From Ideonella sp. MAG2 (lineage in GTDB: Bacteria > Pseudomonadota > Gammaproteobacteria > Burkholderiales > Burkholderiaceae_C), in NCBI GenBank assembly GCA_004359425.1, contig PTEU01000002.1, forward strand, positions 1,328,402 through 1,392,401: DNA of 64,000 nt, written 5' to 3'. Positions within the stretch are counted from its first letter, which is position 1. The number at the start of each line of letters is the position of its first letter. The position numbers were made by a program, and so were the translations under genes. This document shows positions 45,651-50,737 of the stretch, piece by piece. The notes below the pieces were generated by a model. The model was not told the DNA's origin. It made no database searches and was given only the letters and a program-made list of their open reading frames with translations.

Positions 45651-46717
45651 TTGCGTTCTCGCTCTCCCCTGCGCACGGTCAGCTCCGCTTGGTTGTCGAT
45701 CCCGGCCTTGTCCAGCTCGGCCACGAAGCTGGAGAGGCTGTCAATGGGGCGGCCATTGACCGCCACGATGATGTCGCCCAACTCTCCGTTGCGGCGGTTC
45801 AAGGGCACCAAGCCCGCCTCGGCGGCTGGAGAGCCGCGCTCCACCTCAGCCACCACAATGCCGCTCAGGCCTGCGCGCGCGACCAGCTCTGGCCGCACGG
45901 GCGTGATGCCAATGCCCGGCAAGGGCGCACGTCCCCGTGCGATCAGCGAGGGCACGATGCGGTTCACCAAGTCGGCCGGGATGGCAAAGCCCACGCCGGC
46001 CGAGCTGCCCGAGTTGGACCGAATGGCGGTGTTTACGCCCACCAATCGCCCGGCACTGTCCAGCAGCGGGCCACCCGAATTGCCGGGGTTGATGGCCGCA
46101 TCGGTTTGGATGACGCCCGATACTTCGCGGTAGCGTGTGGTGGGCAACTCGCGGTCCAAGGCGCTCACAATGCCATTGGTCAGCGTGCGCTGTAGGCCAA
46201 AAGGGTTGCCAATGGCATACACCGCTTGGCCGATGCGCAGGTCTCTAGACTGGCCCAAGGGCAGCGGGCGTATGTCTTTGGGGAAACGAGTGAGGCGGAC
46301 CACGGCGAGGTCGTATTCCGGCGAGCGGCCCACCAAGGTCGCCTCGATGGGCGCGCCCGCGTCCAACTGCACAAACACCCGTCGCGCACCGTCCACCACA
46401 TGGCTATTGGTCACCACATGGCCGAGGTTGTCCCACACAAAGCCCGTGCCCGCCGACTGCTGCACCTCAGTGCGCATCCAGATGCCAGCACTGACCACCT
46501 CGGTCGTGATGTAGGCCACCGAAGGCGAGGCCGTGGCGAACAGGTCGACGACCTGCTGCTCTGCGGGTAACAGAGGCCCACGCGGGGTGACGGTACGCGG
46601 CTGCCCGGCACCGCCATCTCGGGAGAGGGCAGGCCAGGCCAACAGGCCACTGGCCACGGCAACGCTCACGAGCGTGAGCCACATCCAAGGTTTCGAAACA
46701 GGGCGAGACAACATCAT
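45650..46717 (-). CDS. DegS/AlgW-type trypsin-like serine protease with PDZ domain, extreme C-terminus lost
   Basis: 'GTGFVWDNLGHVVTNSHVV', 'TDAAINPGNSGGPLLDSAGRLVGVNTAI', PDZ; C-terminal tail is antisense of the META gene. Confidence 0.88.
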
Positions 46718-46956
46718 GAAAGAGACCCCTCTGCGCAATCGCCCCCTCAGGTGCGGCCGACAGCATGAATTTCAAGACGCCAGCGACGCACGCTCAGCCA
46801 TCGGGCCGAAAGAGCGCCCAGCACCGCAACAGGACCCTTCGCACTGCAGACACTCAGGCCATCAGCGAAGAAGGCTCCCAAAGGCCCGTTCGACCTTGCG
46901 TTGGGGATTTTGAGCCTCATTTTCAAATGAACGGGAGCCCAACGCCCTAGGGTCTG

Positions 46957-48948
46957 TTGACATATAAATCCTGCCCGCGCAGGAGTGTCCAAGGGCGCTG
47001 GAGTAGGCACACAGAACACGAGCCCTTCAACAGCGACCGGGTCTACGGTGATGTGACTCAGCGCTGGAAGACCGACCACGACCCGGCAGCCCTGGCCGCA
47101 CGCCTGCGCGACATCTGCGATCGACCATCGATCATCAAACATTGCGTGGAAATGGTTCCGTGGGAAGTGACCAAGGCCTTGGCCGAGGCCAGCAGCCGCG
47201 CTGGCTACCGCCATTTATTTCTCTACCGTCAGCGCCCTGCTGGGAGGTTGCTATCGTTGCACTTCGCGCGCCAGAGCGGCATCTGGGGGCCTCAGGGCAA
47301 AACGGCCAAAGTGCTGGACGCCGTTTACGCAAAGCCGCTTCCAGTCGCAGAACTGGTCGCGCATGAAGGGCGATGTGCCCAACGGCTGCGCGATAGTTGG
47401 GAGTTGCTGCTGTCTCTGAATCAGCATCCGCTGGCACTGGCCTTTGAAGATGTCTACGACAACCCTGACGCGGCCTCCGCCCAGGCTGGCATCGAAGCGC
47501 TATTGCAGGCCCTTAATCTGGGTGAAGACCCAGCCTTTACGGCCAAGTTCGTGGCCGATGTGCTGAACAAGGGCAAGCAAGGGACACGCGACGACTATGC
47601 CCGCTTCCAGGGCGTGGCCCAACTCGAGCGCAGCTTGGGGCGTGTCGCGGCTTTCATTCCTGCACCTCGGTTGGCGCAGTGCGAAGCCACCCAGCCGGGC
47701 ACAGCTTCGACTTGGATTCGCTTCTCCTCGCTCGACGCAGCCGGTCAACTGCACCCGGAGCACACGCCACTGAGTCTGGGTGGGCTGGCTGTGATGTCTG
47801 CGACAGCGCCGCCCTCCGCAAAGCTGCTGCTGTGCCAGGGGCCGCGTGAGACCCCTGTACCCTGGGGGTTCGCGTCGCAATGGGCCAAGCAAAAGTTTCC
47901 CAATGCCCCCAACGGTGAGCGTGCCCGTTTCGCCGTGAAGGGGGTCTGTTTGGACGAACCTGCGGACCTCGTTGTCACCGACCCGGCAGCTGGCGCAAGG
48001 CAAAGCGTTCTGCACCTCAAGGCCCGTGCCGCGACGCGAGAGGCGGTGCTAGCGGCCGCTCTGAAGGTGGCCACCACCCCGACAGAGACGACGGCCCAGA
48101 CGCCGGATCTGATTCTCTACGGTGGGCTGCGGCGCGAGCTGAATGCGCTGATCGACGATCCTCAGGACCTCGACGCGCTGCGAGCTTCGGTGTTGTTAGA
48201 TGCGCGCTACCGCCAAGCAGCCACCGTGGCGTTTGAACGCATGACGCGCTTGCTGCAGGCACTGGAGGCGCAAGGCCCGGGCGCGTCGGCACCGTTCCTG
48301 GCGCAGATGCGCGCCGTGCTGGGTGACCTGACCCTGAACGCCCATGGTTACACCACCGCTCTGGCCGGCCGTGACCCCGTTGAAGTCTGGCAGGGCATTC
48401 GGGCCTTGGCCAGTCGACTCGAAGGGCTTGGCCTGCGCTGGTTCATCAATTCAGGCACCCTATTGGGGGCCATTCGCGAACAACGCTTGATTGCGCATGA
48501 CGACGATGTCGATTTGGCAGTTGTGTTAGAGGCCTCGACTGCCGAACAAGCCGCTGGAGCCTGGGAGGCCCTGAAGCGGCGGCTGGCCGAGGCCAAGCTG
48601 CTCAACGTGGCGTTCGATCAAGAGAACAAGAGCCACGCCAAGATCGGGCAAGCTGGTGGTGCCAGTGTCGACCTCTTCCCGGCCTGGATCGAACAAGGAC
48701 AAGTGTTTGTCTGGCCCTACGCCGCCGGTGAGGCTCCGGTGGAGGCGCTGCTCCCCTTGCAGCCCCTGTCGATCTGCGGGGTGGACGTCCAGGTGCCAAA
48801 CGACCCAGCGACACTGCTGACTCTCAACTACGGTGCCAACTGGATGCAGCCCGACCCAGGCTTCCGATTTCCCTGGAAGCAAGCGCGAATTCGGTTTACA
48901 CGTTTCCTTGCGGCGCTGAAGGAACTTTCGCCCCTTACTTCCCCATGA
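46957..48948 (+). CDS. Sulfotransferase-like domain + uncharacterised middle region + LicD/fukutin-type nucleotidyl/phosphotransferase domain; N-terminus suspect
   Basis: 'EHEPFNSDRVYGD', 'HLFLYRQRPAGRLLSLHFARQ', 'ALAFEDVYDNP' (sulfotransferase-like) and 'RWFINSGTLLGAIREQRLIAHDDDVDLAVV', 'GGASVDLFPAWIEQGQVFVWPY', 'NYGANWMQPDP' (LicD-like). Confidence 0.7.
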   Translation: MTYKSCPRRSVQGRWSRHTEHEPFNSDRVYGDVTQRWKTDHDPAALAARLRDICDRPSIIKHCVEMVPWEVTKALAEASSRAGYRHLFLYRQRPAGRLLSLHFARQSGIWGPQGKTAKVLDAVYAKPLPVAELVAHEGRCAQRLRDSWELLLSLNQHPLALAFEDVYDNPDAASAQAGIEALLQALNLGEDPAFTAKFVADVLNKGKQGTRDDYARFQGVAQLERSLGRVAAFIPAPRLAQCEATQPGTASTWIRFSSLDAAGQLHPEHTPLSLGGLAVMSATAPPSAKLLLCQGPRETPVPWGFASQWAKQKFPNAPNGERARFAVKGVCLDEPADLVVTDPAAGARQSVLHLKARAATREAVLAAALKVATTPTETTAQTPDLILYGGLRRELNALIDDPQDLDALRASVLLDARYRQAATVAFERMTRLLQALEAQGPGASAPFLAQMRAVLGDLTLNAHGYTTALAGRDPVEVWQGIRALASRLEGLGLRWFINSGTLLGAIREQRLIAHDDDVDLAVVLEASTAEQAAGAWEALKRRLAEAKLLNVAFDQENKSHAKIGQAGGASVDLFPAWIEQGQVFVWPYAAGEAPVEALLPLQPLSICGVDVQVPNDPATLLTLNYGANWMQPDPGFRFPWKQARIRFTRFLAALKELSPLTSP

Positions 48949-49403
48949 CCAAGACCGTCATCACCTACGGCACTTTCGACATGTTCCATGTCGGGCATGT
49001 TCGCCTCCTCAAGCGTTTGCGCGCACTCGGTGACCGCTTGCTCGTTGGATGCTCCACCGATGAGTTCAATGCCTTGAAGGGCAAACGCGGTGTCATCCCC
49101 TACGAGCAACGCGTGGAAATGTTGCTGGCTTGCCGATATGTCGATGACGTTTTCCCGGAGCATGACTGGGGGCAGAAGCGCGACGACATCCTGCACAAGA
49201 AGGCCGACATCTTTGCCATGGGCGATGACTGGGCCGGCAAGTTCGACGACTTGGGTGACATCACGCAGGTCATCTATTTGCCACGCACCCCCAGCATTTC
49301 GTCGACCGAGTTGCGTCGGGTCAGCGCGGCCCTGCGAGAAGAGCAGCTCAGCGAACTGCGCAACGTGCTTGACCACCTCAACCGGGTGGTCAAGTCACTC
49401 TAG
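48945..49403 (+). CDS. Glycerol-3-phosphate cytidylyltransferase-like (TagD family)
   Basis: 'ITYGTFDMFHVGHVRLLKRLRALGDRLLVGCSTDEFNALKGK', 'YLPRTPSISSTELRR' (HxGH and RTxxISST motifs); overlaps upstream gene by 4 bp. Confidence 0.85.
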   Translation: MTKTVITYGTFDMFHVGHVRLLKRLRALGDRLLVGCSTDEFNALKGKRGVIPYEQRVEMLLACRYVDDVFPEHDWGQKRDDILHKKADIFAMGDDWAGKFDDLGDITQVIYLPRTPSISSTELRRVSAALREEQLSELRNVLDHLNRVVKSL

Positions 49404-49504
49404 GGCGCAATTGACAGACCGTTTCGCCCATTTGCCGTCGACTCTCTTGCCGACCTTTCAAAGCCTGGAACTCCGGTTTTGCATTCAATTGGATTGTTAC
49501 TTCG

Positions 49505-50104
49505 ATGGTCATCATTCCAGCCTTGTCCCTAGGCTATCAAGGCGTACCGAAAGTCGGCACAACGTCGATGTACAGCTGGCTCTATGAGCATTTGTTGCAG
49601 GTGAACGGCACTCTGGTGGACGAGGTCGACCTCAAGTCGCCCAACCACAAACGCCTGCTGTTCACTGCGGGCAAGGCTGGCAATGTGCTCGTGCCCAATA
49701 CCGCAGAGGCCGTTCATCCTTACGCTTCGGCATTCAAGTTCGCATTCACTCGTGACCCGGTGAAGCGCTTTGTGTCGATGTATCGCAATCGCGTCGTCCA
49801 TCACCGCGAATTGGGCAGTCGCACCTCAGCGGCGGCCCGCATGCGCCAGCACGGCTTGGCGGTGGACCCGTCTATTGATCTATTGGTTGAGCGCTGGGAA
49901 GACTACCGTAGCTGTTCGGTGTCCATCGCCCACCATGCGCGCACCCAACTTGATTTCCTGGGGCCGGATTTGTCCGTCTACGACCGATTGATCGACTTGT
50001 CCGGCATGGCCACGGTCCTCGAGGAAGTTCGGAAGCGTTGGCGCAGCACCCACTTGGCGAGCCTTGCCGAACGGCGAAAGCGGCTGACACCGGCACCTGC
50101 GTAG
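49505..50104 (+). CDS. Sulfotransferase-family protein
   Basis: 5'-PSB-like 'GVPKVGTTSMYSWLYEHL' and 3'-PB-like 'FAFTRDPVKRFVSMYRNRVVHH'; C-terminus possibly truncated. Confidence 0.72.
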   Translation: MVIIPALSLGYQGVPKVGTTSMYSWLYEHLLQVNGTLVDEVDLKSPNHKRLLFTAGKAGNVLVPNTAEAVHPYASAFKFAFTRDPVKRFVSMYRNRVVHHRELGSRTSAAARMRQHGLAVDPSIDLLVERWEDYRSCSVSIAHHARTQLDFLGPDLSVYDRLIDLSGMATVLEEVRKRWRSTHLASLAERRKRLTPAPA

Positions 50105-50212
50105 GGGTCCAGCCTCAGGAGCAACGGCTTCTAGAGCACATGCCAGGGGCTAGGAGCCTGTCGGACTTGGGGAGTGTCGGCTGCAAATCGGCCGCAGCGC
50201 CCAGCGGCAAAG

Positions 50213-50737
50213 TTAGCCTTTGCGCCGTCTTGGCCCGCCCATGGTCCCCTTGGCCTGTACCACCGGCAGCCTCACTTCAGACTTGATTTCGCGCAGCACG
50301 ATGCTGCTGCGCACATGGGTCACGCCAGGCAGCTTGAAGATGGTGTCGTGCAGCAGTTGTTCGTAGTGCTTGATATCGCGCACCAGTACCGTCATGATGT
50401 AGTCGGCTTGGCCGGTGGTGGAGAGGCAGCGCACGATCTGCGGGCTGGCGGCTACGGCGTCTTCAAAGCGGCGCACCAGGGCCTCGGTGTGCTCGCTCAA
50501 GTTGGCCTCGACCACCACGGCCAGGTTGAGGCCCACCTTTTCGCGGTCCACCAAGGCGGTGTAGCCGGTGATGACGCCGGCGGCTTCCATGTCCTTCATC
50601 CGTTTCCAGCAGGGAGTGGCGGAGAGCCCCACGGCGTCGGAGATCTGTTGCACGGTTTGGCGTGAGTCGCGTTGCAGCTCAGCCAGGATTTTGAGGCTGT
50701 AGGTGTCGAGAGTGAATTCAACTTCTGAACCGCTCAT
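50213..50737 (-). CDS. Lrp/AsnC-family transcriptional regulator
   Basis: 'LDTYSLKILAELQRDSRQTVQQISDAVGLSATPCWKRMKDMEAAGVITGYTALVD'. Confidence 0.93.
   Translation of the reverse strand: MSGSEVEFTLDTYSLKILAELQRDSRQTVQQISDAVGLSATPCWKRMKDMEAAGVITGYTALVDREKVGLNLAVVVEANLSEHTEALVRRFEDAVAASPQIVRCLSTTGQADYIMTVLVRDIKHYEQLLHDTIFKLPGVTHVRSSIVLREIKSEVRLPVVQAKGTMGGPRRRKG

Follow-up and report, generated by a model that had tools for sequence, protein, structure and literature searches.

Genes of the TagD type and of the LicD family stand together in several capsule loci. CpsC of A. pleuropneumoniae, a member of the LicD family, uses CDP-glycerol to build poly(glycerol-3-phosphate) on the Kdo glycolipid of the group-2 capsule; its NTase domain resembles FKRP, and two Asp residues are needed (PMC11666461). 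The capsule loci of N. meningitidis H and Z contain the same GCT-LicD pair as cshA/B and cszA/B (PMC3647402). In CpsB/CpsC (serotypes 3 and 7 of A. pleuropneumoniae), cshA/cshB and cszA/cszB alike, the donor is CDP-glycerol and the LicD protein has, besides an additional N-terminal domain, two Asp residues that are essential.

Here we describe three same-strand genes, A, B and C, from a window of 64,000 nucleotides (the whole stretch analysed) of Ideonella sp. MAG2. Their coordinates, strand and the 4-bp overlap of A with B, as given by an earlier sequence-only reading, were confirmed on the window. The locus is probably a mobile, partly eroded LicD-TagD island for phosphoglycerol decoration, in which the N-terminal fusion of A is new but damaged. 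Its features are the following:

46948..46949, no strand: TA target dinucleotide at the left end of a MITE remnant; insertion into C-TA-G, from the sequence and comparison with full copies
46950..47008, + strand: MITE remnant, the 5'-terminal ~59 bp of a ~266-bp element; full copies elsewhere in the genome have paired inverted ends 265-266 bp apart
46957-48948, + strand: ORF A, 663 aa as read, comprising a MITE-derived start, sulfotransferase-like remnant, middle module and LicD domain
47009..47667, + strand: sulfotransferase-like domain of A, ~residues 19-237; N-terminal P-loop segment absent; 41% identity to L011
47668..48084, + strand: middle module of A, ~residues 238-376; blastp matches to L011 and L008, the kind also in G309
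48133..48945, + strand: LicD/fukutin-related nucleotidyltransferase-fold domain of A, ~residues 393-663; IAHDDDVD and VDLFP; Pfam, phmmer, Foldseek
48945-49403, + strand: B, TagD-like glycerol-3-phosphate cytidylyltransferase, 152 aa; ATGA overlap with A
49505-50104, + strand: C, Sulfotransfer_2-family protein, 199 aa; P-loop PKVGTTS; ~25 C-terminal aa absent (possible frameshift)

As in the capsule systems, a GCT gene lies adjacent to a LicD-family transferase gene in A/B, although the order is LicD-TagD here and TagD-LicD there, and the N-terminal TPR of those LicD proteins contrasts with the sulfotransferase-like remnant and middle module of A. Whereas those pairs belong to capsule loci, the island lies outside one and lacks CpsA/CpsD-like neighbours: it is flanked by DegQ-like and Lrp/IOR genes, no CpsA or CpsD polymerase gene stands beside it, and no capsule or glycosyltransferase genes adjoin it, kps being ~0.88 Mb away. 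The pair is already known, and the description of the locus as a candidate novelty was overstated for its LicD-TagD part.

B is closely related to TagD and shares enzyme family and motifs with B. subtilis TagD. It matches the structure of that enzyme (PDB 1coz) with an E-value of 3.7e-41, and the active-site motifs (HxGH-type, GDDWxGKFD and RTxxISST) align; the partner transferase of B, in contrast, is of the LicD type and not TagB/TagF (PF04464). The TIGR01518 model matches B with E 6.7e-43 and 145.8 bits, short of the equivalog cut-off of 165.4 bits, a threshold that only one of the 12 matching class members passes. CDP-glycerate synthesis of the Caulobacter type was rejected for B, as CpgD belongs to COG1213 and is not homologous to TagD (PMC12275187).

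A had been read as containing a LicD-type part, and Pfam, the FKRP match and both catalytic Asp motifs bear this out for its C-terminal third. Pfam LicD (PF04991) is matched with 5.4e-7 and 30.4 bits (cut-off 22.6), over profile positions 5-35 of 227 only. Human FKRP is matched by phmmer with E 4.6e-7 and is the best structural match (Foldseek, E 5e-7) of a model with pLDDT ~80-98 across most of the domain. The likeness consists in the same catalytic fold and Asp motifs, and IAHDDDVD and VDLFP of A fall in invariant columns; FKRP, however, uses CDP-ribitol on alpha-dystroglycan and has no linked cytidylyltransferase gene, unlike A/B. A plasmid origin of the domain was rejected, as no plasmid match was obtained. 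In LicD proteins of other Proteobacteria (L025, 7212-8894; L022, L026, L027) an N-terminal F5/8-type (discoidin) carbohydrate-binding-like domain was seen by eye.

Stand-alone LicD genes followed directly by TagD, with 4-11 bp overlap, occur at seven Rhodobacteraceae loci (L012, L015, L017-L021), with 35-39% identity of LicD to A and 60-66% of TagD to B; two further loci (L014, L016) have LicD without TagD nearby, and L013 is cut by a contig end. These genes are adjacent and overlapping as in A/B, but their LicD stands alone, without the sulfotransferase-like domain or middle module of A. Within the genus, the orders gpsA-tagD-LicD (G305) and LicD-gpsA-tagD (G306) combine the enzymes for glycerol-3-phosphate, CDP-glycerol and transfer. 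TagD was found at E 1e-25 in 12 of 274 class genomes, two of which, the distant members G588 and G824, have LicD at most 3 kb from it. Because the LicD-TagD adjacency and overlaps recur and gpsA-tagD-LicD clusters occur in the same genus, transfer of glycerol-phosphate from CDP-glycerol is the best reading of the A C-terminus together with B. The earlier proposal that an enzyme making CDP-glycerol works together with a phosphotransferase of the LicD type is supported by the Rhodobacteraceae overlaps, gpsA in the genus and the biochemical precedent (PMC11666461). The GCT-LicD pair, known from Pasteurellaceae and Neisseria as a capsule-linker system, is hereby extended to stand-alone islands in other Proteobacteria, where the conserved overlap of the genes suggests that LicD draws on CDP-glycerol as its donor. 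The gpsA, tagD, LicD-type rows of two same-genus genomes (L070:7289-10379 and L073:5643-8601) lie amid unrelated genes; in L070 the neighbours include urease accessory-like and metG-like genes.

In G309, the nearest relative (90-93% identity in the DegQ-like protein), the genes run exo-IOR-Lrp-DegQ-DUF2242-GDT1 as they do here, but Lrp and DegQ are only ~170 bp apart and A, B and C are absent. As the same flanks enclose nothing in G309, ABC is regarded as an insertion in the present genome, probably a small island that was gained by horizontal transfer and lies between two housekeeping genes; a loss in G309 would be less likely. The view that the locus is foreign to its housekeeping surroundings thus stands, whereas that of a conserved three-gene pathway does not: the A-B-C arrangement is absent from every other genome searched, C was found beside LicD-TagD nowhere else, and the fusion in A was seen only here. 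An assembly chimera is ruled out, both flanks being collinear with G309 on a 1.87-Mb contig, and a reading as a defence system was dropped, as PADLOC gave no match.

When positions 46700-47100 were compared with the own genome, 17 other matches were obtained, all within 46938-47008 and with 88-100% identity across 29-71 bp. They belong to a MITE whose full copies are 265-266 bp long, have the inverted ends GGGTCTGTTGACATATAAATCC and are flanked as CT[AGGG...CCCT]AG, the target being C-TA-G. The copy in the window has kept only its first ~59 bp and then runs straight into codons for TEHEPFN, so that A owes both its TTG start (46957) and its first 17 codons (17-18 residues) to the MITE, and the junction with the sulfotransferase-like domain lies at 47008/47009. 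The TTG start is probably fortuitous. The ORF of 663 aa is present as described, but since its 5' end (46950-47008) is a MITE end, it does not represent the native protein of A. A striking fusion ORF can therefore be an artefact in which a mobile element lends a start codon to a truncated gene. A MITE probably inserted near or in the A gene, and a later deletion would have joined its left end to the codons just past the presumed PAPS-binding P-loop. No promoter-like site was found before A; as the native start is also gone, expression of the LicD half is uncertain. The MITE family is present mostly on contig C2 of the own genome (L031-L047, L109-L111) and also in G309 (L066, L068, L069, L108), as CTAG insertions with apparent TA duplication, and includes deletion forms of 70-185 bp and one-ended copies. 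A search for a donor locus of A near the MITE clusters of contig C2 returned only MITE matches.

The N-terminus of A is recognisable as a sulfotransferase, as far as its sequence goes, only through its relatives L011 (Methylococcaceae; 41% identity to A residues 20-325) and L003 (same order as L011). Pfam and NCBIfam matched no family in this part of A, sulfotransferase family models matched neither A nor L011 or L003, though the latter two bear a P-loop, and no sulfotransferase was matched when three proteins of the N-terminal family were used for a profile search of the PDB. AlphaFold modelled the sulfotransferase-like and middle parts of A with pLDDT 37, too low to be of use. A Gly-Thr-rich loop is the expected PAPS-binding segment of sulfotransferases. 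L011 and L003 have it as WT[LM]QRTGGTN ahead of the common HEPF motif, L011 reading FIIWTLQRTGGTN...AEHEPFNPERQYGD across this stretch and L003 FIIWTMQRTGGTN...LHEPF, whereas A is without it: the N-terminal domain of A has MITE sequence in place of a 5'-PSB P-loop, and none was found upstream in three frames from 46700. Without the presumed P-loop, the domain should not bind PAPS. Of the sulfotransferase-LicD hybrid proposed earlier, the LicD half holds and the working sulfotransferase is not supported. The N-terminal family is rarer than TagD, occurring in 2 of 369 class genomes, the own included.

C matches Sulfotransfer_2 in Pfam (1.2e-10, 42.4 bits, cut-off 22) and has the P-loop VPKVGTTS, in keeping with its earlier assignment as a second sulfotransferase; its domain, however, is incomplete (profile positions 7-184 of 252). 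In the 251 genomes of the family, C has a single homologue, encoded at a different site in G309: it forms the C-terminal portion of a 568-aa protein, where it is fused to a relative of the L011 middle module; C is ~25 C-terminal aa shorter than this homologous portion. C is probably a 3'-shortened sulfotransferase in its own right, with uncertain activity. After the stop of C another frame of the window (50104-50213) reads EQRLLEHMPGARSLSDLGSVGC, faintly like the lost C-terminus, and a frameshift at the 3' end of C is possible, if weakly supported. The 568-aa protein (L107:8105-9811) lies in a polysaccharide cluster with further sulfotransferases and has, in order, a sulfotransferase-like N-terminus without P-loop (by eye), the middle module and Sulfotransfer_2.

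The middle module connects several of these proteins: blastp aligned L008 with A residues 271-352 (E 6e-6) and L011 with the G309 protein (E 1.9e-9), and modules of this kind follow or join sulfotransferases in L011, L008 and G309. The partner is LicD in A and Sulfotransfer_2 in G309, and in L008 the module comes after a sulfotransferase-like part. A somewhat speculative reading, which we consider improbable, takes the sulfotransferase-like domain plus middle module as a recurring, sometimes non-catalytic glycan-docking unit on different decorating enzymes. If it were true, A could do without its P-loop, and the fusion would direct glycerol-phosphate towards an acceptor recognised by sulfotransferases.

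The main competitor of the proposed island is decay of the whole locus, with A deprived of promoter, start and first domain, C of its 3' end, no product made, and TagD intact by chance. The truncation of A by the MITE, the shortening of C, the missing promoter-like site and the absence of ABC from the same site in G309 all agree with it. However, the frame of A continues uninterrupted for 645 codons beyond the junction, and its GC content varies with codon position as in a gene (0.71 at third and 0.47 at second positions in the LicD part). The LicD domain also retains its catalytic motifs, and LicD and TagD still share the ATGA overlap, so that complete decay is considered unlikely, though it deserves more weight than the other alternatives. 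At the opposite extreme, a working bifunctional sulfotransferase-LicD protein would act with TagD and a second sulfotransferase, placing sulfate and glycerol-phosphate on one extracellular polysaccharide. Such a model draws on the domain content, on the P-loop kept by C and on CysNC near kpsC/kpsS, by which PAPS may be available; the loss from A, at the exact MITE junction, of the very segment present in L011 and L003 and the singular three-gene architecture make it highly improbable. A double modification pathway with sulfate and glycerol-phosphate is accordingly held to be unlikely.

The LicD-TagD pair could also transfer another CDP-alcohol, i.e. ribitol, ethanolamine or choline phosphate, since the LicD family includes users of CDP-ribitol and CDP-choline and the best structural match, FKRP, is a ribitol-phosphate transferase. 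B fits glycerol-3-phosphate cytidylyltransferases far better than choline (1e-6) or ethanolamine (5e-21) enzymes, and in the genus gpsA stands together with tagD and LicD; we give this possibility very little credence. On the preferred reading of a phosphoglycerol decoration island, B would make CDP-glycerol from CTP and sn-glycerol-3-phosphate, and with this donor the LicD domain of A would add glycerol-phosphate to a glycan on the surface or linked to lipid. We infer as a candidate acceptor a Kdo-anchored capsule, for KpsC and KpsS are encoded in the own genome (C1:489.8-493.2 kb) and CysNC lies ~5 kb from them, which makes both such a capsule and PAPS plausible in the organism. No relatives of A or C were found near this kps locus. 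In this region (G000:C1:483022-493171; L113, L114) the genes for a two-domain KpsC and for KpsS lie beside CysNC and a gene that, by eye, resembles one for a sulfate-permease-type transporter, so that the capsule of the organism may be a sulfated one of group 2.
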